A program made the position numbers and the translations under genes. The notes under the pieces are model-generated. The model was not told where the DNA came from. It worked only from the letters and a program-made list of their open reading frames with translations, and made no database searches. From positions 4,154,001 to 4,218,000 of the forward strand of contig CM038920.1 in the NCBI GenBank assembly GCA_021904315.1: a stretch of 64,000 nucleotides of DNA, written 5' to 3'. Shown here one piece after another: positions 15,636-48,735 of the stretch (its first letter is position 1; every line of letters starts with the position of its first letter). The stretch is from Sphagnum magellanicum (taxonomy: Eukaryota > Streptophyta > Sphagnopsida > Sphagnales > Sphagnaceae).

Positions 15636-18600
15636 ATGGAGTTCTTTTCATCTGTTCGCCCCCGCCCAGAGCATTTTGTGAAGTCACCATCATATTCTGT
15701 TCCTACTGTGAACCACATGTAGTACCATGTACTGATTGATGCCAATGGAACTGCCTGCCATCTGCTGTTGTTTTTGATGATGCAAAATTCAAACAGTACC
15801 CTTTTCCAGAAACCAGCATCCCCAGTTTTGGTCTATAGCTCTTGTTGGTTTGTGTACAGGGCTAGAAGGTGAAAGGCAGGAATTCATTTTCTTGAGATGT
15901 CTGAAATTGCAGGAAAGACTCCACAGGGATACCACACACATTGGAACACAGTGTGTTGTGTGGCTCAAGGAAGTATCCGTTGAAGGAGCCATTTGTAGAA
16001 CTGCTTAAGGGGAGTCTCCACACTTTCCTGAACGCCTTTACTTACCCCGCACCTGCTACCCTGTCGCATCCACAAACATCAAGGTATTTGTCTGTTTTGT
16101 TGATTGATGAACTGCATATTCCAATTTCAGAAACTGTTTGTTTGTTTGTCTGCTTCATTCTTGTAGCTCATCACAGGAGGAGGAACAGTGTATCATTGTC
16201 ATAAAACTGAGAACTGGCAATGTCTTTGAGTTGTTTCTGAAAGCTATCTAACTAAAGGAATGAGAGTATCAGGAACTCTGGTACCTCTGCCACAGCACTC
16301 TGCTGCATTACAGTTGTAACACAATTGAACTTCCCCTTTGTTTTCCTGCAAGGTTTTAACCTGGATACTTTTGCACTTACCTACAGGGACTTGGGTCTTC
16401 TTGGATGGTGAGCAGGACTTCTACAATCTGGCGGATGTGTATCTAGATGCTGTATTCCACCCTCATGTCGTGTATGAGGTGCACACCTTTCAGCAGGAAG
16501 GGTGGCACTATGAGTTGAATGACCCATCTGAAGACATTACCTATAAGGGTAAGAAGGCTGCCTGTGGTACACAATGATTCTGCTGCTGTCAGTCAGAGGC
16601 ATGTGCAATTTTATTTTTCTTTGTAAAAGTTGCCATTGTGACCAGGAAATTGAATTTCTGATCATGTAACATTTGGTATCTGAACCTGAAAGTGACAGTA
16701 CATGAAATGATGTTGCTTCTATAAAGAGGTTTCTGTGTATATTCTGAGCAGGGCTAATAGCTTTGATTGTACATTGTTGAAGAGGTGCTTGTGTCAAGTG
16801 TCTGACAACCATTCATTTTGTCTTGTGATGATGTTACAGGAGTGGTGTTTAGTGAGATGAAGGGTGTGTATTCACAACCTGACAATGTGCTGGGCCGTGT
16901 CTCTCAGCAGGTTTGGAACTAGCTCAAAAATGGATTTGCTATTAGGTCTTTTGTGGTTTGTCTTCACAATGTGGTGATTAGAAATTTCTCAAGGTTTAAT
17001 CAAGTTGGGTTTGAGAAAGATATGGTGACTGATGAAGTATAAAATTTGCGAGTGCAGGCTTTATTTCCTGACAACACATATGGTGTTGATAGTGGTGGAG
17101 ATCCCACTTTTATTCCAAATCTGACCTTTCAACAATTCCAGGTCTGTTTTTTGTTTCTTTGTGGGTGGACAAGCAAATAAATGTTCCAAGCTATTGTTGG
17201 AGCAGCACTAGGCAAGTTCAAGATGTTGGAGTGTCAATGCTGTTTGTGGTGATTTTTTTTCTGGCTAGAAGCATGGTACATTTTTCTCCACATGAAAGTG
17301 TTTTGTGTGTGTGAAGGCAAGTCTTACTGCCCAGTCCTCAGCTCTCCTTTATGTTCATGACAGGAATTTCATGCCAAGTTTTACATCCAAGCAATGCATG
17401 TGTGTGTTTCTATGGTGATGATGATCCAGACCAACATTTGCGCATACTAAGTGGCGAGTTAGTATACTAATCCTGAGACAGAATTAGCTCTAGGGTTCCT
17501 TGATCACCTTATGCTGGGCACCCCAGGTTCACCACTGAGAAAAGTTCTGCTGGAGAGTGGAATCGGTGAAGCCATTGTGAGAGGTGGTATTCAGGATGAG
17601 CTCTGTCAGCCTCAGTTTAGTATTGGACTGAAAGGTGTTGTGGCAGAAGATGTGTCCTGTGTGGAGGATCTGGTGTTTAGTACTTTGAAGCAGCTGGTTG
17701 AAGATGGCTTCTCTTCTGAAGCAGTGGAGGCTTCCATGAACACAATTGAGTTTTCTCTGCAAGAGAATAACGCGGGGTCCTTTCCCCAAGGTCTCTCACT
17801 TATGCTGCGCTCTATGGTCAGTGGATAATTGAAGTTTTGAAAGTACAGGATGATGCATTGAATTATTCTTTTCCTGCTGTAGGCATTTGCTTTCTACATT
17901 GTTTTCTCTTTCCACTCAATTACTCCACTGAGTCATGATCTGTTCTGTATCTATTATCAACAATGTATATGACCATTGGATCCTGTTTGTTTACAGGGAA
18001 AGTGGCTTTGTGGTGGTGATCCATTTGAACCTCTTCACTTTGCCAAGCCCTTGGAGCAGCTTAAGCAAAGGCTTTCTGCTGAAGGTGTGAAAGCAGTTTT
18101 GTCTCCAGTTATCCAGAAATACATTCTGGACAATCCACATCGGGTGACTGTTGAGCTCCAGGTTGGTGCTTTTCCCTTTGCTTGAACAATGAAATTCCTT
18201 TAACTAAGAGATCTTGTGTATGAACTTCTTGGGCCATGTTGTGATTTGGGACAATATGCTTGCACACAACACCAAAGAAAGATTGAGGTAAGTAAGGGCT
18301 GGGAATTTGTATATATGGGGGGAAACTTTGCAGCCTGATCCAGAGAAAGGCAAGATGGATGAAGCACAGGAGCTGGACAGGCTAGCAAAAGTAAAGGCCA
18401 GCATGACTTCAGCAGATTTGGCTGAGCTTGCCCATGCCACAGAGGAGCTGCGGTTGAAGCAAGAAACTCCAGACCCACCAGAAGCTCTTAAAAACTGTGC
18501 CCAGTCTTGTGTTGTCGGACATCCCAAAGGAGGCTGCGACTATACCTATCATTGTATGGCTTCTCTTTTCCCTCCCTTTTGAGAAGATTTATTTTGAGCT

Positions 18601-19285
18601 ACATTCCTGACCTGAGGAAACCGATAGTAAAAATAAGCACAATGTTGGGACATGAGGATGTGTGGGGATCACAATGTGTATTGCTTATGTTGAGTTTTAA
18701 ATCTTATGATGATTTTTTGTGATCCTGATCAAGAATAATCTTTTGTTGGTGGTGTGCAGGTTGGGGAGTTGAAGGGAACAACAGTGCTTTGGCATGACCT
18801 TTTCACTAATGATGTCTTGTATGCTGAGGTTGCATTCAACCTCTGCACAGTGAAGGTTGAGCTGCTTCCCCTCATCCCTCTCTTCTGGTATTTCCCCTCA
18901 CTTCATGGCTATCTCTTATCTGATGTCTTGATGTTTTTTTAACTCCATGTGTGTTTTTGACCTTGAGGGGGATATGTTTGGGTCCAGAGATAGGTAAACC
19001 ATTTCCTCTGAAACATGGAATCATGACCCTGTTGATGCAGCCAATCACTTCTGGAGATGGGTACAAAGAAGATGAACTTTGTGCAGCTGAGCCAGCTTAT
19101 TAGCTGTAAGACTGGGGGCATCTCTGTCTACCCTTCCACACCACCTATCAGGGGTAAGGCTGAGCCATCTAGTCATATCATAATTAAGGGCAAGGCGATG
19201 GCTTCTCAGAGTTCAGATCTCTTTGAGCTGGTGAGTTTTCCTTTCCCCCTAATGCAGCAGGTATGTTGATGTGTTTGTGTGATTG

Positions 19286-19308
19286 AGTTTAGGGTTAGGG
19301 TTTAGGGA
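19286..19308. repeat. telomere-like motif in a PreP intron
   Basis: Reads AGTTTAGGGTTAGGGTTTAG followed by GG, two and a half plant telomere repeats within an intron of the PreP pseudogene. It may act as, or derive from, a telo-box. Confidence 0.6.
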
Positions 19309-20714
19309 TGGCATGATGTGCATGCTCTTCTCAGTCTCTACTGAATGTTAAGTGCATGAGGCTGGGCAGGCAAGCATGTTAGTTAGACTTTTTATGTGGC
19401 CCTTTGATTGTTTGGAATCTATGAGATTTAAGGGAATGTATGGGTGTGCACAGATGCGAACAGTGCTGCAGGACGTTGAGTTCAATGACCAACAGCGCTT
19501 TAATCAATTTGTAGCCCAAAGCAAATCACATATGGAGGTAGGCTGTGTGCTATATGTATCTACCTCCTGTGTATCTGTGTCACAAGACTGACACTTCCAG
19601 AATTGTGCACATCTCGGGAAGATATCAGAGTAGTCCACACTGACCTTTATGTTCTCTAGTTGCATCCCAATCAGCATTTTTCTTTTCTTTTCAAATTCGT
19701 GAGGTATGTGGGTTGGCAACCATCCAAAAGACAGCTTAGCCAAAGTTGGCTACAAGTAAGAGAGGAAAGTAGAAAAGTTGATCTTGCTACATCTTGGCAC
19801 CATGCTAGAACCTATTGTCTAAACATGGCGACATGGGCCCATTTTCTCCAAAAAAAATCCCCTGTATGCCATTTGCAACCCTCTTTTTTCTTGGCAGCAG
19901 GATGTGAAATTTTGCCCCCCAAAATAAAAACTTACTGGTCCCAATTGAGTCTCAAAGTCAACCAAATGGCCTCTCATGATGTTACTTTCAAATTATTACC
20001 AGATTTTTAGTTCCTGTTGATGTTACTTGCTTGCAACAGTGAGCACTGTTGATGTAGATTTCTCTGGGTGGATGCAGAGTCAGATTACTGGAGGTGGGCA
20101 TGTTATTGCTGCAGCATGCATGTGTGGTATGCTGAATGTGGCTGGGTGGGTTAGTGAGCAGATGGGAGGTTTAAGGTGCTTCCTGTGAACTGCCCTTCCT
20201 TCTACTCCACAAGCAACATGTACAGTTTTATTCATTTTGTTCAGTTCTGTGGCTGATTTATTGCTAGTATAATGAGAGCTTTATTGTGTGAAAAATTCAG
20301 TGATTCTCTTTCTGCTGAATCTGGGATGATAAGCAGTGTCGCAAATTATAATGGCTGTTGCTTTAGAAATAGCATGTGGAGGAGTGCAGTATCCTTTTTT
20401 CTCTGAATTGGGTGGGTACGAGTGAGTTCTGTCCTGATTGAACTGTGGGTGCCTGGCAGTTACTTGGAGTACTTATGGGACTTGGAAAAGAGGGTAGATG
20501 AGGATTGGCCTGCTGTTGCAGAGTCCCTGGAAGCGGACTGCTTTGCTTGCATGGAAGGATGCCATTGTGAATTTGACAGCAGATGATCATACACTGACCC
20601 ATGCAGAGTCTCATGTGGCAACTTTGCGATACATTGCCTGAGCATAGTTCTGGTCTTGTCTCTTGGGATCAGCGATTACCATTGATCAATGAGGGTCTTG
20701 TCATACCTACTCAG

Positions 20715-20720
20715 ATCAAT
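20715..20720 (+). other. mutated splice donor of a late PreP intron (ATCAAT)
   Basis: The exon ends ...ATACCTACTCAG and the next begins GTGAATTATGTTGGC at 20872, giving the expected Pro-Thr-Gln / Val-Asn-Tyr junction. The base pair after CAG is AT instead of GT, the same G-to-A change as in intron 1. Confidence 0.65.
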
Positions 20721-21966
20721 ATTTTTTACCATGTTATTTGCCAAGCAATGTAGTATACAGTGTGGATGTTGAGAATTTCATATATCTATCTTTCATTGTT
20801 TTGGTTTTAGTACACAGATTGCAGATGCAGAATGTGCCTACTTATTGATTGAGGTTTTTTGTTGGTGACAGGTGAATTATGTTGGCAAGGCAGCCAGTCT
20901 TTACGATGCAGGTTATGAGCTGAATGGTAGTGTGTATGTTATCTCAAAATTTATTGGCAACACATGGCTATGGGATCAGGTTTGTGTCAGCAGTGGTGCT
21001 TATGGAGGCTTTTGTGACTTTGACAGTCAATCAGGTTCATTCTCATGCCTCACACATGTATCAATGTCTGTGGAATGTATGGGCTGGAGCAGTACAGGTG
21101 ACACAAATGCCTACCTGATTACTAGGATTTCGTACATCCTTACATATATGCCAAGATTAAGATTTGTTTCTTGCCTGAAAGCTTATCTACACACTTCAAA
21201 TTTGCAGGGGTGTTTTCTTTCCTCTCATACAGAGATCCCGATCTGGTCAAGACTTTAGACAACTATGATGGGACAGTAGAGTTCCTGCAGAATCTGCAAC
21301 TGGATGATGATGTGCTCACAAAAGCGATCATTGGCACCATAGGTGATGTAGATTCATATCAGTTGCCAGATGCAAAGGGTTATACCGGGTATGTTAATTG
21401 AACCGATGAATTTCTCTACTGAAAACCTGTTCTCTTCTTAGATCTGAACACCCAACTGTCCCCATGAAATGCTTTTGCTCAGGAGTTTTCAATAATGGTC
21501 CATTTGATTACCTGCTTATGAGAATGATAAGTATCTGTGAAGCTCATGCCTGTAACTGCATGCAGCATATTTTTTGTCTGTGTGCATGAAAGTTGATGTG
21601 ATGTTGATTTGTGTGTATCCAGCATGTTGCATTATATCATGGGTATAACTGATGAGGAGAGGCAGTGCAGACATGATCAAATTCTCTCAACCAGGTTGGG
21701 TAGTCTGATCTTTGACTCATGTCAATTTTAGTCTATTAAAGTTCTGCAATACTTTGACACCTATATATATATTGTACCTATTTAAAGTCTAAAATCTATG
21801 ATGTGGCATTGTGGGTGGGTGCAGTGTGAAAGATTTTCATATATTTGCAGATGTTTTGGAGACTGTAAGGGAGAAAGGTGTGATAGTGGCTGTTGCATCA
21901 GCAGATGACATTGCTGCAGCTAATGAGGAGAGGCCTGGACTTTTACAAGTGAAAAAAGTTCTGTAG

Positions 21967-35769: not shown

Positions 35770-36061
35770 AAATGTGCTACTAACCTCAAAGGTGGTGGTG
35801 TTGTTCATGACAAAGAATCAATCCACAACAAGAGGATTTGGAAGACTAGAAGATGCCATCTCAATCAACAAAATTTATTATTCCATAGCAAAACCTTACA
35901 AAAACAATTCTCTATGTTACTATTGCCTTCATTTCACTCACCACAAGTTGTTATTCCATCTGAAAAGGAAAAATTTATTCCTAATTTGCAACCATTTCCT
36001 AGAATGGCAATGGATGAAGAACATGAAATTGAAATTGACATGTTACAAGATGTTAAACAAG
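35770..36061 (+). other. open frame interrupted at the retroelement's 5' end
   Basis: One plus frame stays open from 35770 to the first LTR base, ending with residues MAMDEEHEIEIDMLQDVKQ, Q- and acid-rich and protein-like. It has no recognised domain. It runs about 27 further codons into the LTR. It could be an exon tail that the element landed in, or chance. Confidence 0.25.
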
Positions 36062-36355
36062 TGCCATGCCCGTACATGGCCTCATACATGATGGCCAGTT
36101 ACGAGCATGCTCATGTGCGCTTTTAGGGTTAATGTATGGTCTTAGGCGACTATACATTATTAGGTACTTAGGGTTTTAGTTTGTTGGCGGCAGTATAAAA
36201 GGCCCAGCCCATTCTTTCTCCCTTTAGTATTTTTAGAATTCCTTTGTCAAGAGAGTTTCGTCCATAATAAGCTAGGATTTCTAGATGCTCATGGCGCCCA
36301 TTGCACGGCCACCGTCTACATACATTTCATTTTCTTCTTTCTTTGCAATTCAATT
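36062..36355 (+). repeat. 5' LTR core (segment B)
   Basis: Begins TGCCATGCCCGTACATGG and aligns to 46255-46547 throughout. A TATA box, TATAAAA, lies at 36194-36200; the 3' copy reads TATAAGA. After 36355 the two copies diverge completely: here the sequence continues TTCTAGAAAAATTATAA, whereas in the 3' copy it continues with segment A'. No tRNA-Met-type primer-binding site was found after it. Confidence 0.85.
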
Positions 36356-38080
36356 CTAGAAAAATTATAATTTTTGTTACTTCATGTTGAAAGCCGCAAA
36401 TTTCTTTTGCCGGTGAGTTTTCGAGTTATTGTTGTTACTACTATTGTTGCTCCTGCTGGTGTTACTGCTGTTGGAGGGTGCTGGTGTTGCTACTGCCGAA
36501 GGGTGCTGTTGGAGGGTGTTGGTGTTGCTACTGTCAAAAGGAGTTAGCATTGTTACAGGAAGGAACTTGTGTTATGCCAACCAACAAAGTTGAGATTTTT
36601 GACATTCTTGACAGGTTTCAAAGCTCCCTTCTTTTTCTCTTTCTTTCTTTTTTTCTGTTTCATGTGTACAAATTCGCCCTCCACTAACGAATTTTAAAAA
36701 AAAAAAAAAAAAACAAACATTTAGACGACGACGCCCGCCATTGCTGCAGAATAGCGTAGCACCGCTTGTTGCAAAGCAACGTTGTTGTAGTGACGTGTGT
36801 TGCAAGATGCTCCCATGACGCGAGCTGCAGCATCGCAACGTCGCAACAACAGCAATGTTACAGCGTTGCAACAACAGCGCTGCGAGCTGTAGCAACAATG
36901 CCACAACAACATCAACGCTACAGCGCCGCAGCAGCACCACAGCAATAGCGTCGCAGCAGCGCCGCAGCAGTGCCATCGTTATAACGCCGTAGCAACAACG
37001 CCATAGCAGCGCCATCGCTGCAACGCCGCAATAATAGCGTCGTAGCAATGCCATTGTTGCAACGCCGCAATAACAGTGCCGTAGCAGTGCCATCGCTATA
37101 GCGCCTAGTAATAGCACCATCGTTGTAGTGCTAGAGCAGAGCAGTGCAGCGCTGATGTAACAGCAACATTGCAGCAATAGTGCAGTGTCGTAGCAACAAC
37201 AACGTTGTAGCAACAGCGCCATAGCAGTGCAGCGCAGTAGCAATAATGCCGCAGCAGTGCAGTGCAATAGCAACAGCGTCGCAATAATACAGCGCAGTAG
37301 TAACAGCGTCACAACAATGTAGCATCGTAATAATAGCATCGCAACAGTGCCATTGCTGTTGCAGCGTTGTAAGTGACGATGCTACCATCGCTGTGACCTT
37401 GGTCTGTCCAAACGTCCGTCCAACTTTCGTTCGACTCTCGTCGGATGATTCAATCAAGTTCTATCCATCTAGGGACTTCCGTCCAACGTTCGTCGAACTT
37501 TCGTCCTGCACCTGTCGTCTTGCATTCTACCTGCGTCTTGTGCCTCGCGCCATGTCGTCCTGCGCCATGTCGTCCTATGTATTGTTTTGTTGTCCTACCT
37601 TTTCATCCAACATCTGTTTAACTTCCGTCTGACCTTCGTCCAATGTTTGTTGAACGTTCATTTGACCTCCGTGCGATCTCTGTGTGTCACAAGTCATTCC
37701 CAACAATGCACTGTATTCTTCAAACTGTACATTGTGTTAGAATTTTGTAGTTAATGTTGTGTATTATCACAAAATTTTGGGGCATGGGACAACACCATGT
37801 CCTCGGATGATGAGAGCACTACCGCTTAGCCAAAGCCCAGGTATCAACTACGAAGTAACACACAATCTTTTGAGCTGATTTTTTTAAGGTCACGATCTTC
37901 ACAATAGTACCATCAAGTGTCTACAGCACCATTGTCATTTAGTACAACTCCTACCTGAAATTCAGGCTCAAGTTACACTACATCAACGATACATCAGAGT
38001 CCATTTGGAGGGGCTCATCAGTGGAATACGCATGTTGCCACACCTACTTTCACACCATCACCGTATATCCCGTTGTAAAC
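36356..38080 (+). repeat. low-complexity leader: GCN-triplet array and GTCC-rich repeat
   Basis: 36420-36550 is GTTGCT-rich. 36697-36713 is poly(A). 36720-37380 is an imperfect CAGC/CAAC-triplet array with a higher-order period of about 39-42 bp (for example CAACGCCGCAATAA recurring at about 37020 and 37060). 37400-37680 repeats motifs like CGTCCAACNTTCGTC. Both strands stay open for long distances because of the triplets. No gene is supported, and the minus-strand 255-codon frame here (37339-36572) is an artefact. Gene-free leader between LTR and gag. Confidence 0.75.
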
Positions 38081-38081
38081 T

Positions 38082-39745
38082 GTGACCTTAACACCCATAT
38101 ACACCATGAAGGTCAGTAGTTCCTCTGGGAGAATTGAGAATTTCAATGGAAGGCCAGGTATTATTTCTTTGAGGGAGTTCAAGGCAACTTCTTCAACTGT
38201 GGTTTGTGAATTAGAGCTCAAGTATGGCACTAATTACATCAAGGCGTTCACATTCAAAAAATTGGTTCGTTATGTGCACTATGAGGCATTGAATGTCTAC
38301 AAATAACATTCTGCAAGGATTTTGGGTGTCACCCAGATTCTCAATCCAGCTTACGCCATAGCCATCGCCACCGCCTTTCAAGCTGCAATTACACATCACG
38401 AGGCTATGCCGAATAATCCAGACCTGGTACCTACCTCAATAAAAAAAAATTTCTCAACAAATCATTGTTGCTACCACAAACATTCCTCCCACCACTAATG
38501 CGCCAACTTTTGCTCATCCAGTGGGGGAATTTTTTTGAATTCTTGAGGTGGAATTTCAAGTCAAAAATTTTGAAAAAATTGTGCAGCTCGCCACCTTCTT
38601 TCGACAGAAAGATGAAACCCTCAAGATGCTCTACAGGAGGCTTCTCAAACTCAAAGAGAATACCCATAGCATCACAGACCTAGAAGCTGCCCATCGGTAT
38701 CTTCATTCATTGGAAGGTACTCCAACACTCCATGCGGGGGTTTTACAACGGGTTTTTGCAGAATTTGGAGACTCGTACACTTTGCTGGATGTGTACAACA
38801 TTTCTGAAAAGCTAGAACTAGCTCATGCACACTATGAGGCGAGTACTATGAGGCCTCCATCACGTTCAAGGCCTTAATCTACACCAGTTGTGCCAATTAG
38901 ATCATCACATTCTTTTTCAAGGACTAAAGCGGTGCACTCGGCTACACCCATCCTACCTTCTTGCAACTATTGTGGCAATCCTGCCCACAAAGTTAATGAG
39001 TGCAACATTCCTTCCGAAGATCTCTTTTGTGATTATTGTGGGAAAGAGGGACATCAAGAATATGTCTATTTTGCCAAGTTCCCAGAACGAAAGCAATTCC
39101 GATTATAATGGCAAAATCTACCAACATCTTCCGTTGTACCTCAACTAAAAGCCAAGGCACATCAGCCTTCCACTCAGGCTTTGCCCACCAAGGGTAATTC
39201 CAACAAGAATGCTAAGAAGAAGGAGCACAATGATGACAAGAGGGAGGTGCTTCAAGCCCATGCAATTCAAGTTCAGACTTTACAAAATGAACTCGAATCA
39301 TTGAGGGCCCAACTTGTTAATCTAAAAGGCAAATCCTCCCAACCAGCTAGTCATGCCCAACATGTACAAGGTTCAGGATCACGAGAGGGACCTCTTAGGT
39401 TGTTTTATGACCTTCCACATGATGTCACGGTTGGGGAGTATGTTCTTTCCACTCCACACAATTTTAGTGTCACACCAAAATTTGCTATTTCTTTTTGCCC
39501 TTTCTATGTCATGGCACAAGAAGCTAGTGTGGCACCTAGAGTTTTTGCCACTAGGCAAGTAATTCAAATTGATGGATTCGCATCTAGTTCAAGTCCTATT
39601 ACCAAGGCTAGAGGAGCTCAAGCAATCATGCCACAATCTTTTCGTCCTTTCAACATGGAAGAAGAACACGCCTTATTGGCGAAGGGGGAGGAGACTATTA
39701 CACCACAAGCTGTTAGGGCATCAAATTCTCGTGTCCCAGGAATAC
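38082..39745 (+). pseudogene. gag-like polyprotein segment (capsid and nucleocapsid), broken
   Basis: The gag product packages retrotransposon RNA into virus-like particles. A capsid-like stretch lies at 38548-38877 (LEAAHRYLHSLEGTPTLHA and neighbours, typical of the retrotrans_gag helical region). Two CCHC knuckles follow: CNYCGNPAHKVNEC at 38962-39003, intact, and CDYCGKEGHQEYVY at 39028-39069, whose last Cys is Tyr (TGT to TAT). 39181-39780 is a coiled-coil-prone, Lys- and Gln-rich linker (LQNELESLRAQLVNLKGK). The frame is 0 at 38082-38306 and 1 from 38548 on. In-frame stops are at 38304, 38874 and 39106. The true start codon is uncertain. Confidence 0.8.
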
Positions 39746-40940
39746 ATGTATATCAGGAAAACACACAATTTTTCCACTGATCAGCTTATGGAATGCCAAC
39801 TTCAAATGCATGAAGTGGCGCAAAAGCTTGTGAGTACACCATTGTTTAGTTTTCAAAATTTGAAGCTAAGCACCAAGAACATAATTGCAATCTTAAAAAA
39901 TTCCTTGAACACTACATCAGGTCCTCTACCAATCCCTGATCCACATGCTACAAAGGTCCCATCCAACACCTTGGAGAGACATTCGATTAACTCATGTGTT
40001 GTAGATGGCGTTCGTAATCTAATCACTAATTCTAACATGGCTAAACTAGTGGGCTTTCCTATTTCTGACTCTACATTCACATATCAGAAGGGAGTTCAGA
40101 ACACCTCACTTGTGGATTTGTTACTCAACAAAGGTGTTGTGGATAGCCATTCTCTCCACAAAGTCTCTCACTCATTTCCAAAGGTGGTGCCTAGTGAGAG
40201 AACTTCCATCACCACCGGAGTTGCCATTGTCGACAATATTGGGTTAGTAATCCAAATGGGAGGACATACACCCAGAGTGGTACTTCTTGACACAGTTGCC
40301 CAACCAGTGATTCTTGGAGTTCAATTCGCCGAGAAGATGGGCATGCTTGACTCCAAACTACAGAAATCTATGTGGCAGATTCGCACCGCTAGAGGGAACG
40401 TAAAGGAGGTACTTGGGGAAAGCTTGGATTTTATTACACTTAAGTGCAATGAAGGTACAGATCAGGAGCTTTGCTTACAAGTCAGATGTTTAGTCACCAA
40501 TGCCACCAATTATGATTTACTCATTGGGCAAGAAACCCTATTTCCACCAGGTTTCACAATTGACAACTGGTTAGAACATGCGTACTACCGAGTGGATTGG
40601 GAGACTAATGGCCACCACCTGGGATACATACCCCTTGATTTACATGGGAACCATAGTCCTATGGCTCACCATTGTATGCTCAAGGAAGCACACACCATTT
40701 CCTACATCCAACAAGCTAACCACAAGTGGATAGAAGGAGATGAGGAGGAGATAACTTACGCTCAAGCTACTGAAAGCTTGAGGGTGGTTCCTACTGACAT
40801 TCAACATGGACCAGAGGTTTTACAAAGGTTCAAAGTAGCCCACAAGCCTTTGGTCAAAGCTTTGTCTAGTTTTGAAAGCATGGAGAGCCATGGCGAACCA
40901 ATTAAACCATTACTTCGTCAGCTAATCACCTGGACACCAC
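39745..40940 (+). pseudogene. retropepsin-like protease segment
   Basis: The aspartic protease matures the polyprotein. The active-site region reads VVLLDTVAQPVILGVQ (catalytic Asp codon 40289-40291), where the family has Asp-Ser/Thr-Gly; Gly is Val here, so activity is doubtful. The C-terminal retropepsin fold signature NYDLLIGQE follows at about 40506-40532. The frame is shifted by one relative to gag, at about 39725-39745. It continues without a break into the methyltransferase through a linker of about 130 residues (40540-40940), so protease and methyltransferase were translated together. Confidence 0.75.
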
Positions 40941-40942
40941 CT

Positions 40943-41880
40943 AAGGATGGGATTACATTACTAGAGCTCTTTGGTGGTATTGGTACAGGTCTTGAAGCCC
41001 TACTACAATCAGGGATGGTGGTTCGGAGGTATTTCTATGTAGACATTGATCCTATTGTAAGGCAAGTGGCGACATCAAGAATGAAGGAATTCATAACAAG
41101 ATTTCCATAATAGTTTACAACCACCGCATGGAAGGCTAATTTCACATTTTTGCCCTCTGACATATAACTAATTCAGAAAAAACATATGGAATTACTTGGC
41201 CCTGTCGACCTCATCATTTCAGGTTGGGAGTGTCAAGGATTTTCTGCGCCTGGATTTGGAGAAAGCTTGAGTGACACAAGATCTGGTCTTTTCACAGACA
41301 TGATACGATTGATCACCTGGGCTCAATCCATTTCTCCTACACTTGGTTATGTAATTGAGAACACCCCTTCTCAATTTGACCAGAGGGAGAAAATCCAGGA
41401 GCACTACACACTGGTCAAACATTACTTTGGAGAGCCGCTCTTACTTGATGCGGCACAATGTGGTTCCTATGTGCACCGGTTGTGCAACTGGTGGACCAAC
41501 CTGGCACCACTCTCAATTCTGCAGCTAGCTCTGAAATACATTATCAGAGACCCCAACCTACAGGTTTCTCACATATTGGATGATCAAAGTTCTTGCTAAC
41601 TAATTACAAGGCAAGAAAAATCTCCTTGGTTTCTTGCAAACACAATAGGAAAACCAACAGGTGTTTAGCCCACCTTTGTCTCCTTCCCAAGAGCACATGC
41701 CTTTCAAGGAGATGAACCAAGCATGGTGTATCATCATGCTTCAACCACTTGGGATGAATCAAGCCTAGAAGAAAGAAAAAGGGTTATGGGGTTCCAAGCT
41801 GGCACTACTAGTCACACTAAGGTGACTAGATTGGAGCGTAACACTCTACTAGGGAGAGGCATGGACCTGAATTCCCTTAC
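40943..41880 (+). pseudogene. C5-cytosine DNA methyltransferase domain, DNMT3-like, in pol
   Basis: The enzyme would transfer methyl from SAM to cytosine C5. Motif I LLELFGGIGTGLEAL (40958-41002) matches the SAM-binding loop and DNMT3's LFDGIATG spacing. Motif II-like YVDIDP is at 41036-41053. Motif IV GWECQGFS holds the catalytic Cys at 41231-41233, but the usual Pro before it is Glu. Motif VI reads IENT in place of ENV, near 41354. The motif VIII region AAQCGSYVHRLCNWW spans about 41449-41493. Motifs IX-X, ERKRVMGF to LLGRGMDL, lie near 41779-41868 and resemble the DNMT3 C-terminus. The order is canonical, unlike DRM. Five in-frame stops (41108 TAA, 41111 TAG, 41165 TAA, 41597 TAA, 41666 TAG) and no frameshift; all five fit CAA/CAG. 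The length, about 310 codons, suits a catalytic domain. It has no PWWP or ADD region. Confidence 0.9.
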
Positions 41881-43656
41881 ATGGTTGTTGTAACTTGTGT
41901 ATTCTTTCAAATGTACACAACACCAACACTAATTCAATCAACTTGTAGTTTTGGCGATGCGACCACATGGCACCCCGACCAAGTACACTTGCCTATCTTT
42001 AACACTCTACATTTCACTCTTAGTGTTGGGTGGGAAGAGGTACCATGTAATTTGACTCAAGTTGTGTCTAATACACTTGGAGGTACATCAGCTTCTAGAG
42101 AAACAATTACAACCTTCTACGAATCTACGTAGTTGGATAGTGGAGAACCCAATACACCAGGTTCTTCAAACACACTTTCTAACTCCATTCCATGTGTTTC
42201 TAACTACCTTTTTGTTATGGGGAACTAGCTCACCAAGAAGGAGAGAGACCAAGTCATAGACTTGCTAATTAAGTATGAGAATGCGTTTACATTCTCAATG
42301 AAAGACTTAGGTAGGTGTAAGACCATGCAATTTTCTATAGACCTTACATATGAAACACAGAGGAGGCATAGGTTGAGCAAACATGAATGGGAACTGGTAG
42401 ATGAAAGATGCAAAAAGCTCCATGAAGCCGGTCTCATTCAACCATTAAGTTTTGATTTCGCAGCCATTATAGTAATGCCAGCAAAGAAAGATTCAGCTGG
42501 ATTATGGACTGAAAAAAGGATGTGCGCGGATTATAGGCCTTTGAACCTAGTTACACCTCAAGATAGGTACCCCATGCCCATCCTTGAAGAATTGTTTGAT
42601 AGCATTGGAGATTCAAACATCTTCACAATTGTGGATCTGAGGCAAGGTTTCAACTAGATTGTGCTTGTTGCAAAGGATCGCAAGAAAACAACATTCCATG
42701 GAAGCAACAAGTTATGGAAATGGCTTGTGATGCCTTTTGGATTGAAGAATGCACCTATCTTTTTTCAACAAGTCATGGACCAGGTTCTCAAAAGGGCAGA
42801 TTTCCTGAAATGCTACATAGATGACGTCCTAGTGGATAGCAAGGGACTCCTGCAGCATTTGGCTCATCTTGAGGAGTTATTCAAGAAGCTCCACGAAGTC
42901 AATATGAAGATCCATCCTAAAAAGTGTGAGTTTGCTGTCACCTCAATAATCTATTTTAGACATAAAATTTTGCCAAATGGTATTATGGTTCATTGGGCCA
43001 AAGTAGTAACCATTTTAGAGATGCCCAATCCTACTGATGTTCACATGTTGAGGAGCTTCATCGGACTATGTGATTACTACAAAATTTATGTCCAAGGTTT
43101 TAGTATTATTGCTCATCCTCTCTATGCACTGTTAAAGAAGGATGTTGCTTGGACATGGAGTGATGAAGCTCAGGAAGCTTTCAACATACTCAAGGAAAAG
43201 CTTTCAGAGTTCCCCATTGTAAGAAGACCTGATTTCAACAAGGTTTTCATTCTACACACTAACTGGAATGCTCTTGGTATTGGAGCTATTTTTGGCCAAC
43301 TTGATGAGGAAGGCAAGGAATATGTTATCACCTATGCATCTCGAAACAATAACAAGGCTGAAAGCAACTACTCTTCATACGAGAGGGAGTGCTTTGCTGT
43401 TGTATGGGCCGTTATACATTTTAGGCCTTATCTTTATGGCACCAATTTCCCTTTATATACCAACCACCAGCCTATCAAGTGGTTAATGACCAACGATAAG
43501 CTTACTGGTAAGTTAGCTCGTTGGGCGCTTATACTTCAAGAGTATGAGTTCAAGGTTATTCACCAACCTGGTATTACACATCAAAATGCGGATATCACGT
43601 TGCGAAGACCCCTCACTACCTTTGAAGATTTTTCAAAAGCCAATCAAACCAAGTAA
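41881..43656 (+). pseudogene. reverse transcriptase and RNase H segment
   Basis: RT copies the element's RNA into DNA and RNase H removes the RNA. RT block landmarks are MCADYRPLN, VDLRQGFN, MPFGLKNAP and the catalytic YIDD at 42814-42825, intact. The RNase H block (about 43225-43590) has two of its catalytic aspartates as Asn: codons 43261-43263 (HTNWNALG) and 43462-43464 (YTNHQPIKWL), each one G-to-A change. The Glu in SSYEREC and the last Asp (NADITLRR) remain. The frame is 1, shifted from the methyltransferase near 41880. In-frame stops are TAG at 42130, TAG near 42225, TAG at 42656 and TAA at 43654. Confidence 0.93.
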
Positions 43657-45033
43657 GATTTTGACCAGATTCGAGCAGTACATGTATCAGAAGCATCTAG
43701 TTATCTTGCACTACAATGTAACTTGGTTGAGCATCCCATTCTGGATATATGGGAAGACTTGGACACTCTGAGGTTTCTTCAACATGGGTAATACCTTCCC
43801 TAAATTACATCAAGTCAGCGGGATCGCATACAACAGCGGTCCAAACGCTACTCATGGAGGGACAATCACCTCATCCGATGCTTACTACAAGGTGACAAAG
43901 TGGTTCCACCACCACATGAACGACTTGGTCTTATTCAAAAGGTACACTTGGAGCTTGGACACTTTGGAGTTAAGCGTACTTATAACCTTTTCGCTCCTCA
44001 TTACCATTGGAGAGGTATGTATGCTCAAGTCCAAGACATCATTGCTAGGTGTGAACAATGTGATAGAGTGAGAACTTCTTTCTCTTCTCGACAGCTCACG
44101 CTTTTTCCACTCCTTATTCAGGGCATGTTCTATCATTGGTCATGTGATTTAGCTGGAGAGTTACCACAAACCTCTAGGGGTAATGTTTACATCATGATTA
44201 TGATTAAGCATTTTTCAAAGTGGGTTGAGCTTGTTGCACTACTGGAAAAATCATCACATAACACTAGCCAGGCTTTTTTACAATAGGTTCTAAGTAGGTT
44301 TGGGGCTTGTGTTGAGTGCCTTACTGATCAAGGATCAGAATTCAAGGGAGAATTCCAAGACCTACTTGACCATGCTCTCATTGACCATCATCGGACTTCA
44401 AGAGATCATCCCCAAGCTGATGGCCTTACAAAAAGGATGGTTCAAACATGCAAGAAAGGACTTCGGAAGATTTGCCTCACTAAGAACAAAGAGGATTGGG
44501 ATCTGGCCCTCCCTTACATCGCCATGGGTTACAGGATGTCCAAACACGCATCTTTATCTCATTTCTCTCCTTACTTTTTACTTTTTGGGAGACATCCCAT
44601 TCCACCCTCTTCCATTGCTACTCAAATGGACCAGGTTGTGGATTTGGACTCCCCAACCACTTGGGCTAAGGTCATTGCAGAAAGGGCCGTTCTATTTAGG
44701 AGGGTTATGCCCATAGCCATGGAGAACCTGTCCATTGCACAACATTGAGACACCTTACAATATGCACACACACGAGGTGGCAGTTATAAACCTAAGGTGA
44801 GAAAATTTGATGTTGGTGATTTTGTGTATCTCCAGCGGCAACCCAATGATACTCTAGACACTTCTTCTGGCCGCACTATCTTGAGGATTAAGGCGATTAG
44901 GCCTTCATGTGTGTTAGAGTTGCAAGGAGCTAATGGACGCACAATTTGGGATCATTCCAAAAATTGTGCACCCTGCCACATGCCAAACTTGGATGCTACC
45001 ATCATCACGTCGATTTGGATTCCTCCACTTGAT
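43657..45033 (+). pseudogene. integrase segment
   Basis: Integrase inserts the cDNA into the genome. The HHCC zinc domain is visible as HLELGH ... CEQC (about 43942-44058). Of the catalytic triad, Asp at 44146-44148 and Asp at 44326-44328 (LTDQGSEF) remain, and the Glu position (44431-44433, after HPQADGLT) is Lys, a single G-to-A change. A GPY/F-like C-terminal module (FDVGDFVYLQRQ, about 44803-44838) follows. In-frame stops are TAA at 43787, TAA near 43799, TAG at 44284 and TGA at 44746. All lie in the same frame as RT. Confidence 0.9.
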
Positions 45034-45039
45034 TATCCA

Positions 45040-45192
45040 TGTTAGGTATGTCAAAGGATAGACGATGCTGATCAGATGTTGCTTTGCGATAATCGTAATG
45101 GTCGATACCATCTCTTCTGTTTCAAGCCAAAGCTCACTCAAGTTCCTGCTAGCAATTGGTACTATTCATCATGTTCTCTTATAGCACCTTGA
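45040..45192 (+). pseudogene. PHD zinc finger fused after integrase
   Basis: PHD fingers bind two zinc ions and read the histone H3 tail. Codon positions give C (45040), x2, C (45049), x11, C (45085), x2, R (45094), x4, H (45109), x2, C (45118), x14, Y (45163), x2, C (45172). This is exact C4HC3 spacing with two cysteines replaced by Arg and Tyr, and the conserved Trp two residues before the seventh ligand (45157). The motif MLLCDN and the Lys-Pro-Lys-Leu segment after the sixth ligand match canonical PHDs. A TAG sits between the first two cysteines (45043). It is in the integrase frame and ends at TGA 45190. The acidic residues before the third Cys resemble PHDs that bind unmodified H3K4, but that is inference. 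Confidence 0.88.
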
Positions 45193-46035
45193 TTCCTACC
45201 TGACGCGCTCCCAAGTCCCAAGTTAGCCCCAAGTTGGGACTAAGTCACTCAAATTGCGAAATTCCTGGACTCGGGGCACACTCCCAGCTTCCAGCACTAA
45301 AGGGGGTGAGAGGGGCGTGCTGAAAGCTCCGAGATAGACTAGGAAGAGGGACAAGCTTACTCAATTACATGGTCCTGCATCCAAATCCAACCAACAAGTT
45401 GGTTAGAACTCATTCTGCACCCTTTTGGTGTTGGGACAAGCCACGGGCTACCTTGGACTCACTTGACTCACCACGGCCCGAACTCGGGGGAAGCCACCAC
45501 CTTCCCCCATATAGTATTCTCTGCAGCTTTCTGCCGCACTTGCATCCAAATGGGTCTTTTTCCCCGGACTCCCAAAGTGGAGACCCGAAACTGTCCCGGT
45601 TTGGACTCTCGGGACTTTGGACGCTCATAACTTCTCACCCCAAACTTAGATCGAGACGAAGTTTGAACCAAAGTTGTAGCTCTGCTTGAGAGCTTTCCAA
45701 CGGTGTGTTGCACTCCCCCTGCACGCATCGGAATCAGGTCGATTCTCGACTTTTAGTGGTCGGGAATCAAACTGCTAGTTTGACTCCCGGCCTTTCTTTT
45801 GACCATAACTTGTGCTACAGATGTCCAAATGGTTCATGCGAGGCCATTTTGGACATCTACACTTCAAGAAATTTCCAATGGTATAAAGAACGCTTCAATG
45901 CGAGGTGTTTTGGCCCCTGCAATTGCGCTCTGAGTTTTCGAGAGTCTCAGAGGACTCCCAAGTCCCATTTTCGGGAGTGTGAGTGGTGACCTCACAACTC
46001 CCTCAAAGTGGGGTTGCAACACCTTGATTCCTACT
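45187..46035 (+). mobile_element. 820-bp solo-LTR-like element, copy 2, nested in the Ty3 element
   Basis: The body 45201-46021 (821 bp) begins TGACGCGCTCCC and ends GGGGTTGCAACA, aligned with copy 1 throughout. It is flanked by CCTTGATTCCTACC (45187-45200) and CCTTGATTCCTACT (46022-46035), a 14-bp direct repeat with one mismatch. That is too long for an ordinary LTR integration and different from the 5-bp flank of copy 1. It interrupts the Ty3 element between the PHD-coding end and the polypurine tract, so it is younger than that element. Confidence 0.8.
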
Positions 46036-46068
46036 CAGACCATGTAACGCTTTTCCCGGCTTAGGTCT

Positions 46069-46076
46069 GGGGGGGG
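46069..46076 (+). other. candidate polypurine tract
   Basis: Eight G residues (TCTGGGGGGGGATACATGAG context) just upstream of the duplicated 3' LTR region. Plus-strand priming would start here. It abuts segment A rather than the LTR core, which is unexpected. Confidence 0.6.
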
Positions 46077-46254
46077 ATACATGAGAATTTCATTTCAGCC
46101 TCCCTTGTGCATTGTATATATATGTGTGCATGCATCTTTTTTTAGTTGATTAGTTTATACCTTTGACTGGCTTTAGTCTTTTTGTTTAGTAGAACTTATT
46201 ACGTATTTACATCCTTACGACACCGTACGTCACGACACTACACGTCACAACAAT
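46077..46254 (+). repeat. segment A, direct repeat before the 3' LTR core
   Basis: About 178 bp beginning ATACATGAGAATTTCATT and containing CCTCCCTTGTGCATTG and GTGTGCATGCATC. Nearly the same sequence recurs at 46548-46710, directly after the 3' LTR core. It is absent near the 5' LTR core. Confidence 0.85.
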
Positions 46255-46710
46255 TGTCATGCCCGTACATAGCCTCATACATGATGGCTAGTTATGGGCA
46301 TGCCCATGTGCGTTTTTAGGATTAATGTACGGTCTTAGGCAATTGTACCTTATTAGGTACTTAGGGTTTCAGTTTGTTAGCGGTGGTATAAGAGGCCCAA
46401 CCCTTTCTTTCTCCCTTTAATTTTTATAGAATTCTTTTGTCAGGAGAGTTTCCTCCATAATAAGCTAAGATTTCTTGATGCTCACGGCGCCCATTGCATG
46501 GCCACCGTCTACATACATTTCATTTTCTTCTTTTTTTGCAATTCAATATACATGAGAATTTCATTTTAGCCTCCCTTGTGCATTGTATATATATGTGTGC
46601 ATGCATCTTTTTTTAGTTGATTAGTTTATACCTTTGACTGGCTTTAGTTTTATTGTTTAGTAAAATTTACTACATATTTACATCCTTATGACATCACACG
46701 TCACGACACA
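46255..46710 (+). repeat. 3' LTR: core B plus segment A'
   Basis: Core B 46255-46547 begins TGTCATGCCCGTACATAG; A' 46548-46710 ends CACGTCACGACACA. TGTC at the start and GACA near the end are short inverted termini, as in LTRs. If this is the full LTR, the 5' LTR has lost or exchanged its A' part. Confidence 0.7.
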
Positions 46711-46712
46711 AG

Positions 46713-48735
46713 TTTCTTAACATGAATAGATGTTCAAACTTCTATAGTAATTACTTCTTTTTCACATAACAAGGATTTTGAGGATGGAATTTAAAGTACT
46801 GAAAAGATAATGTTAAGGGATAGGTAGGGGTGAAAATACATTATGGGTGATTACATTATCTTGTCACAACTTGATTATTGGCCATTGAACAAAAAAAAAA
46901 TGAATAAGATAAGAAAAGGATTCAATAAAATGATATTTTATATGAAATGATTACATCATATGAATTTCATGAATGGATTTTGAGTTGCCATAACATATTA
47001 GACTTTTGAAAATTCTTTTTAACATGAAAAGTATTATGATGCCATTGAAATAAAGGAAGAAAATTTTGGAAAGATTTTGATGATCATAATTTGAGATATA
47101 TGACGAAATATGATTTTTTAATAAATCTTTTTATTTATTTAAATTAATAATTCAACTTTTCAATTTTGAAATGTAAAATTTTGATACAATTACTTACATT
47201 TGACAAAATCCTAAAAGAAAAAAAACATATTAAACCTTGCCATATGACTTGTGTTTAATATAATTATCTTGTTTAAAATGTGTTTACAATGTTGTTTTGA
47301 CTATTTTTAACACTAGTATGAATTCCACCACATGTTGGAAAGTATTATACCGTAGTTTGCTTTTGCCTATAAGCATAGTGAAATTCGATAGGTACATTGG
47401 ATAGGTACACAATTGCAAAATTGACTTAGGTTTGGACATGAAGTAGTTTTTAAAAAAATCTTATTATTTTCTTTTCAACTAGGGTTTGATAAGGAAGTAA
47501 GGCAACATTTCCTTTTTTTTTTTTTTGTTATGCATCACTTCTTTTTCTTTTTCTTTTTTTTGCAAGTTTTGATGTTTTGAAAGCACTAATTTGGGTGTGG
47601 TAGAATAGGTAAAAGTTAGGTGGAAGAAAACAAAAAGAGACTAAGGATTTTGCAAAACAGATTTGGGTTAGTACATGCAGGTAAGAGACATATCAAAACT
47701 ACTAGTAAAAGAGTTATTAGTAGATTTGAAAACCCATAGTTTAAACATCATTTTGATACCAGTGTTTTGAGAATGTTTGCATAGAAATAAATCTCCGGTC
47801 CAAAAAGGGGACGGGTATGGGGTTTCCAAAAAATGTATGGTTGGAACTAGGGGTGAAGGTTTAACAAAATGGGAACCATTGGACATATGCCTATATATCT
47901 GGTCTAAAAACCTATAAATATCTAGCGCCATATTAAAAGACCGCCCAACATTGGATGTGACCACGGAAATGTTGAAAGCATTCAAAACCCATTCAAAGGG
48001 TGTCCCCATGAAAATTCAAGAATCATTTGTGTGGACTCTGGTTTTGAAGTGTAATGTAAAGTGATTAAAGAGTTTGTTGAAGTACCATAACATGATAATA
48101 TATTGCAATTCATATTAATTAAATGTGGGAACCTTTAAAGTTTTTTTTTGGGTGATTAACATCTTCAATTGGCGCATCACACAATCCTAGGGAACATGTT
48201 GGGAATTTGGTGGGAACTTTATAGGAACACGTTGGGAACTTTGTGGGATGACCCTCTCCCAAATGAAAAAAAGCCTAGGCCACTTGGTGCATGTTGACTC
48301 ACCTCTTGGATACAATGATTTTTTTTGCATATTTTTTCTTTGTCATTATTGGCTTAGGTTAATGGCATGAGCATGAACAATGAATGAATATAATAGTGAA
48401 GCAAAAAAGGAATAACATTTCAAACCAATCATGGCTTTTGGGCTCATGGTCTAATAGACTTTGTGTTGTGCCCACCTCAAGTAGTGGGCTCGGCATGAAG
48501 TCCTGTAAAGACCGTGAAACATTATCCAAAGTGCATTTAATGAGAATTTTTCATTCATTCACATTGCATTGGTCCCTTAGGCACTCAATCTTCATGTAAA
48601 GTGAACTTGTACCATGACATGTCTTTTCCTCAAATTCGACGATTTTGAGTTTCAATGGTCATGGGCTTTCAGGCTTTAGTGTAAAGGGGGCCTTAGTCCT
48701 ATCCTTTGGACTTGGATGGAATCTTCACCCTTTCA
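46713..48735. other. intergenic, nothing recognised
   Basis: AT-rich DNA; a 113-codon minus-strand open frame (48009-47668) has no recognised motif. T-rich tracts are at about 47510-47560. Confidence 0.4.

Follow-up and report, generated by a model that had tools for sequence, protein, structure and literature searches.

The window analysed here is a stretch of 64,000 nucleotides (nt) from the moss Sphagnum magellanicum (contig CM038920.1, positions 4,154,001 to 4,218,000), and it contains a decayed retroelement of the long terminal repeat (LTR) type at 36062-46708 on the + strand. Our favoured reading, held with moderate confidence, is that this element is a dead copy from a bryophyte Ty3/gypsy family with the order Gag, protease, methyltransferase, reverse transcriptase (RT), RNase H, integrase and PHD finger, and with two repeats, A and B, arranged as A-coding-B-A-B. 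In this reading a DNMT3-class methyltransferase was kept in Pol and inherited together with the RT, the enzyme may mark the element's own complementary DNA (cDNA), and the PHD finger may tether the integrase. The domain order, the class of the enzyme, the many relatives, the co-inheritance and the conserved catalytic residues were directly supported. An earlier note on this DNA had described a land-plant Ty3/gypsy element that encodes a DNMT3-type methyltransferase, and this description was supported by Sphagnum and Calypogeia relatives on contigs of 13.5-66.6 Mb and by presequence protease exons elsewhere in the window.

The methyltransferase domain and its residues

The methyltransferase domain was located at 40943-41890 by Pfam, relatives, profile search and motif reading; this and all features below lie on the + strand unless stated otherwise. 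Motifs I (40958-41005), II (41036-41071), IV with the catalytic Cys (41210-41245), VI (41348-41368), VIII (41447-41500), IX (41768-41794) and X (41837-41878) were found in order between the retropepsin and the RT, in the protease frame, where the earlier note had read them. The frame shared by the protease and the methyltransferase contained five in-frame stops (39569-41890). Pfam DNA_methylase matched the open reading frame (ORF) at 41186-41599 (2.1e-5, above cut-off). Searching with the methyltransferase part brought up 15 proteins with E ≤ 0.001 out of 5223 candidates, one of them from the window itself. The translated search that had been proposed as a check found a C5 methyltransferase.

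The element enzyme is DNMT3-class, and its motif order is unrearranged. The match to DNMT3 in the profile search was full-length and collinear, and the fold comparison showed that the fold also matched. An origin from DRM was dropped: the order I, II, IV, VI, VIII, IX, X is unrearranged, and DRM chains aligned in two stretches at 38-43 bits. Bacterial capture was disfavoured, as HhaI (38 bits) and HaeIII (30 bits) both scored under DNMT3A in the profile search, but bacterial enzymes trailed DNMT3A by just 3-4 Z units in the fold comparison, which tempers this rejection. The NCBIfam dcm matches of the related proteins P0002, P0003 and P0040 were far below cut-off. Chains named DNMT1 or CMT were absent from the best 60 of the 62 rows of the profile search, which is weak evidence.

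The catalytic residues were then compared among 59 aligned domains of the family. The Cys and the motif VI Glu were present in all 59, the motif VIII Arg in 58 and the Asn in 57. DNMT3 methyltransferases usually have Pro-Cys in motif IV; the window element and 32/59 of the family domains, those of Calypogeia and Closterium likewise, have Glu-Cys, an unusual C5-methyltransferase variant that is directly assayable. At least five switches between Pro and Glu were needed on the methyltransferase tree. The position of Arg836, with which DNMT3A recognizes CpG, was occupied by Arg in 6/59 domains, in a loop whose alignment is uncertain.

The Glu before the catalytic Cys raises the question of whether the domain was kept for binding S-adenosylmethionine or DNA, for example to hold the cDNA or to aid the RT, with catalysis weakened by the change from Pro. 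We consider this unlikely. A binding role alone would not call for the strict conservation of the Cys and the motif VI Glu, or for the near-invariance of the motif VIII Arg, across lineages with Pro and with Glu, and the number of switches points to recurrent change, not to a single loss.

Relatives and joint inheritance with the reverse transcriptase

A further search, started from P0004, returned 48 out of 4643 candidates, and a profile search gave 844 matches of 7998 scored. No protein named Klebsormidium was found among these 48, among the 15 proteins of the methyltransferase search or among the best 120 of the 844. Of the proteins compared, P0002, P0003 and P0007 were the closest, at 84-87% identity. 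P0003 was 85% identical to the window over the methyltransferase part (41015-41890) and 87% over the RT-RNase H part (41884-43467), and P0009 of S. magellanicum, on an 18.2 Mb contig, aligned to 40370-41140 at 83%. Relatives were also found in the moss Sphagnum compactum (P0124, partial, on a 13.5 Mb contig), in the liverwort Calypogeia fissa (P0006 on a 66.6 Mb contig and P0174 on a 17.2 Mb contig) and in the zygnematophyte alga Closterium (P0059 of NIES-53 on a 98 kb contig and P0053 of NIES-54 on a 2.6 kb contig). Contamination is unlikely for the bryophyte relatives because their contigs are megabase-sized; the Closterium contigs are too short for the same argument. P0003 found no relatives among IMG/VR and GTDB contigs, a set that may lack the entries for the window's own genome. 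P0014, P0054 and P0056 are also related methyltransferases; P0014 and P0054 have no Ty3 domains by Pfam, and the RNase H of P0014 belongs to a different type (PF00075), which hints that the methyltransferase lineage moved between kinds of retroelement.

Absence of the methyltransferase from all other copies had been set beforehand as the result that would count against the earlier note; many relatives carry it. It was fused in frame with Gag-protease or with the RT in P0004, P0003, P0006 and P0059, and this bears out the opinion that an interrupted host gene is unlikely. P0004 (1214 amino acids, aa) runs from Gag through the protease to the methyltransferase in a single frame, and P0003 (820 aa) runs likewise from the methyltransferase through the RT to RNase H. 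Because these two proteins read through, the frame breaks in the window element were attributed to decay. When 59 related proteins were searched against the window with tblastn (E ≤ 1e-6), all matches lay inside 36000-46800; no second copy was seen within the window. Judged from its sequence, the element is a member of a multi-copy bryophyte Ty3/gypsy family, with a design conserved in mosses, a liverwort and algae.

The methyltransferase and the RT were both present at the required lengths in 29/177 proteins. The methyltransferase lay before the RT in three of these 29 (the Sphagnum-like P0003 and P0005, and P0059 of Closterium), and after RNase H, before the integrase where one was present, in 26. 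The layout with the methyltransferase after RNase H formed a single group (support 95/98) in the RT tree, which had 27 rows and Closterium as its root, and in the methyltransferase tree all 26 such proteins fell inside one group of 36 rows (support 99/99). The two layouts required one change on the methyltransferase tree, with 26 rows counted as after RNase H and 10 as before the RT. The identities of the methyltransferase and of RT-RNase H were correlated among 25 elements (r = 0.81; means 41% and 48%). These data fit one capture, a long co-inheritance and one relocation inside Pol.

The trees have some weak points. Of the 10 rows counted as before the RT, only P0003 includes the RT within the one protein; another is the window, and Gag-protease context was the sole basis for assigning the other eight. 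The methyltransferase tree was rooted on a single, very distant DNMT3A, with long-branch warnings, so that neither its root nor the position of Closterium P0053, P0116 or P0014 is secure.

The PHD finger and a possible mechanism

The PHD finger and the split repeat arrangement are additions to the earlier reading. The degenerate finger lies 3' of the integrase and in the integrase frame, at 45040-45189 (PF00628, 1.4e-7 at 45046-45189, above cut-off; P0009 of S. magellanicum). P0021 aligned at 42% over 43744-45177, with integrase and PHD in one alignment. A PHD finger was listed in 27 of the 28 integrase-core proteins from the P0004 search (P0035 was without it), and a chromodomain in none of the 28; in Sphagnum-type elements PHD was seen in P0009 and the window only. 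The chromodomain was absent from P0009, P0021, P0030 and P0040, where PHD was present; of the window itself, the stretch 44746-45045 lay outside the scan. Chromoviruses are Ty3/gypsy elements with a chromodomain after the integrase. The present element is like them in having a chromatin-reading type of module 3' of the integrase, but a PHD finger replaces the chromodomain, and Pol has an additional methyltransferase.

The Sphagnum PHD was ranked against PDB. JARID1D (KDM5-type) was first (3e-11), followed by KMT2D, Lid, KMT2C and DPF2, and UHRF1 was lower (7e-6). Several PHD fingers of this group read the histone H3 tail when K4 or R2 carries no modification. By analogy, we infer that the finger of the element may target the unmodified H3 tail.

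A mechanism can be proposed from these domains. The methyltransferase would be made with Pol, packed in the particle and carried along with the RT, and it would methylate the double-stranded cDNA of the element before or during integration, with the result that new copies are pre-marked. Through the PHD finger, the integrase would be tethered to nucleosomes whose H3 tail is unmodified. Insertions might then be quieter and better tolerated, or the cDNA might be protected. Self-methylation, raised in the earlier note, and CG activity are properties that the enzyme may have. The pairing of PHD and methyltransferase suggests that these elements may both select and mark their insertion sites.

A more specific account can be offered tentatively. 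An ancient streptophyte lineage, running from algae to bryophytes, would use the PHD finger to steer the integrase to nucleosomes unmethylated at H3K4, a DNMT3 writer with an altered motif IV would methylate the incoming copy, and the methyltransferase would have been relocated once in Pol. If this is true, the element has rebuilt inside Gag-Pol the combination of reader (ADD) and writer (catalytic domain) found in animal DNMT3. Mosses are a tractable setting for asking why a parasite encodes the mark that silences transposons.

Repeats, known systems and other features

The + strand order was A1, leader, gag, protease, methyltransferase, RT, RNase H, integrase, PHD finger, B1, A2 and B2. The 5' terminal repeat A1 (36062-36354) showed 89% identity to A2 (46255-46547) over a 299-nt alignment (36056-36354 with 46249-46547), and B1 (46077-46238) showed 93% identity to B2 (46548-46708), the 3' end of the element. 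A candidate target-site duplication, ACAAG, was read by eye at 36057-36061 and 46708-46712, with no strand assigned; it has 4 or 5 bases, and its edges are uncertain by a few bases. Of the outer coordinates in the earlier note, 36062-46710, the start held and the end was nearly right (46708), with a candidate (A)CAAG duplication on each side.

The A-coding-B-A-B arrangement was seen in the DNA of one copy only, and A2-B2 would form a 454-nt LTR with TG...CA ends. The same picture could therefore come from decay of an ordinary LTR element, through loss of the B half of its 5' LTR and gain of a second B by duplication. We regard this as improbable: two independent events with matching borders would be needed, and KnitGypsy-Dnmt3 of Klebsormidium nitens was published with the same layout (PMC5890265, Fig. 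4 legend). No copy of repeat B was found in the leader, and repeat A alone aligned between the element ends.

Retrotransposon-encoded DNMTs are the main topic of de Mendoza et al. 2018 (PMC5890265); its Fig. 4 legend gives KnitGypsy-Dnmt3 gypsy domains and DIRS-like repeats, and its Fig. 1 legend gives A-coding-B-A-B as the layout of DIRS elements. The element here shares with KnitGypsy-Dnmt3 the Gypsy Pol domains (protease, RT, RNase H and DDE integrase, with the window's protease and integrase core under Pfam cut-offs, as expected in a decayed copy), an unrearranged DNMT3-class methyltransferase inside the Pol frame (broken in the window) and the repeats, here in one copy. It differs in its land-plant host, in the Glu of motif IV and in the PHD after the integrase, a term absent from the main text of PMC5890265; the likeness was drawn from published text and legends. 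Purifying selection on the methyltransferase, with Ka/Ks < 0.2, belongs to the definition of the KnitGypsy type; our proxies for selection were at the protein level. The repeat arrangement, the candidate duplication and the DDE integrase are what ties the element most strongly to the Klebsormidium family, as seen in one copy. Because the split-repeat layout is the published Klebsormidium one and the methyltransferase and RT identities track across the 25 elements, a land-plant relative of that element appears to fit better than an independent capture, the other option of the earlier note.

SymbioDIRS-Dnmt3 is similar in having DNMT3 within Pol, A-coding-B-A-B repeats and two coexisting domain orders, but in place of a DDE integrase it has a tyrosine recombinase, and the text of PMC5890265 saw no relationship between it and the gypsy element. 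The tyrosine recombinase PF00589 was absent in scans of P0021, P0040 and P0030, which had PF17921 and PF00665 instead. For DIRS elements, whose cDNA precedes insertion, de Mendoza et al. propose that the enzyme methylates the cDNA. RNA methylation was raised in the same text for SymbioLINE-Dnmt, which was inactive on DNA in yeast, and the enzyme here could likewise act on genomic RNA, a tRNA primer or an RNA-DNA hybrid rather than on double-stranded DNA. This seems quite unlikely, given that the enzyme is DNMT3-class by profile and fold, that the tRNA enzyme DNMT2 was far lower in the profile search, and that CG methylation was reported for the SymbioDIRS-Dnmt3 enzymes (PMC5890265). It is hardly credible that a retroelement became joined to a host DNMT3 gene or to contaminant DNA through nested insertion or misassembly, as the fusion is in frame in P0004, P0003, P0006 (66.6 Mb Calypogeia contig) and P0059 (98 kb Closterium contig) and nothing was found in favour.

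Cellular DNMT3 (DNMT3A, and Physcomitrella DNMT3a/b as described in the text of PMC6453930) has the same catalytic-domain fold and motif order. The cellular enzymes have DUF3444 in plants and PWWP and ADD in animals, whereas the domain here is part of Gag-Pol and seems in most family members to be without the CpG-reading Arg. An orchid Ty3/gypsy element with an m6A demethylase domain (PMC9289625) is another case of a captured nucleic-acid-modifying enzyme in plant Ty3/gypsy, but its enzyme is an RNA demethylase and, according to the title, a recent acquisition. A 2025 paper restates the streptophyte and dinoflagellate cases in its text, but names Copia and DIRS (PMC12344493). No land-plant element of this kind was found among the open-licence papers listed, judged mostly by titles and abstract openings, and the word "methyltransferase" is absent from the main text of a survey of plant LTR elements (PMC6317226). 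Retrotransposon-encoded DNMTs are already known; the land-plant, PHD-bearing form of the Ty3/gypsy-DNMT3 element is new.

Divergence was 10.7% between A1 and A2 and 6.8% between B1 and B2, a difference that was not significant. Transitions made up 35 of the 43 differences between repeat copies (36056-36354, 46077-46238 and 46249-46709), and they were commoner at CG and CHG (15/72) than at CHH (20/277; p 0.0016). This excess fits host methylation and is silent on the element's own enzyme. The observed/expected CpG ratio was 0.51 in the element and 0.25 and 0.37 in the flanks; the element was not lower and so gave no sign of self-methylation.

Among the remaining coding parts, the gag region (38106-39762) was split across two frames, with a CCHC zinc knuckle at 38962-39003, and P0004 residues 1-559 aligned to it at 63-72%. 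The aspartic protease (40253-40540), whose active site at 40277-40318 is degenerate, matched PF13975 at 6.4e-4, short of the family cut-off. The RT and RNase H (42229-43545; PF00078, 2.5e-18; PF17917, 2.7e-35; P0003, 87%) were in a different frame from the methyltransferase. The broken integrase (43744-44745) comprised an H2C2 zinc-binding part (PF17921, 1.3e-15) and an rve core (PF00665, 6.5e-3, below cut-off), whose later piece, 44290-44745, gave no Pfam match when scanned alone.

The leader (36355-38105) contained GC-rich minisatellites as tandem repeats at 36454-36508 and 36921-37308, with units of 11-39 bases (36454-37308). A minus-strand ORF of 255 aa (36572-37339) overlapped them and looks spurious. 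No primer-binding site was identified: a search of the leader region with 8 short patterns matched only TGGCGCC, which lies inside A1 (36292). Scanning the window for Rfam families and tRNAs gave no matches. Elsewhere in the window, exons of a presequence protease (PreP) gene were found at 17511-21255, with matches to PreP_C (2.3e-20 at 20872-21255) and M16_C (0.002 at 17511-17825, below cut-off). The sole PDB match of the PreP_C stretch was chain 2fge_A, which we take to be Arabidopsis presequence protease.

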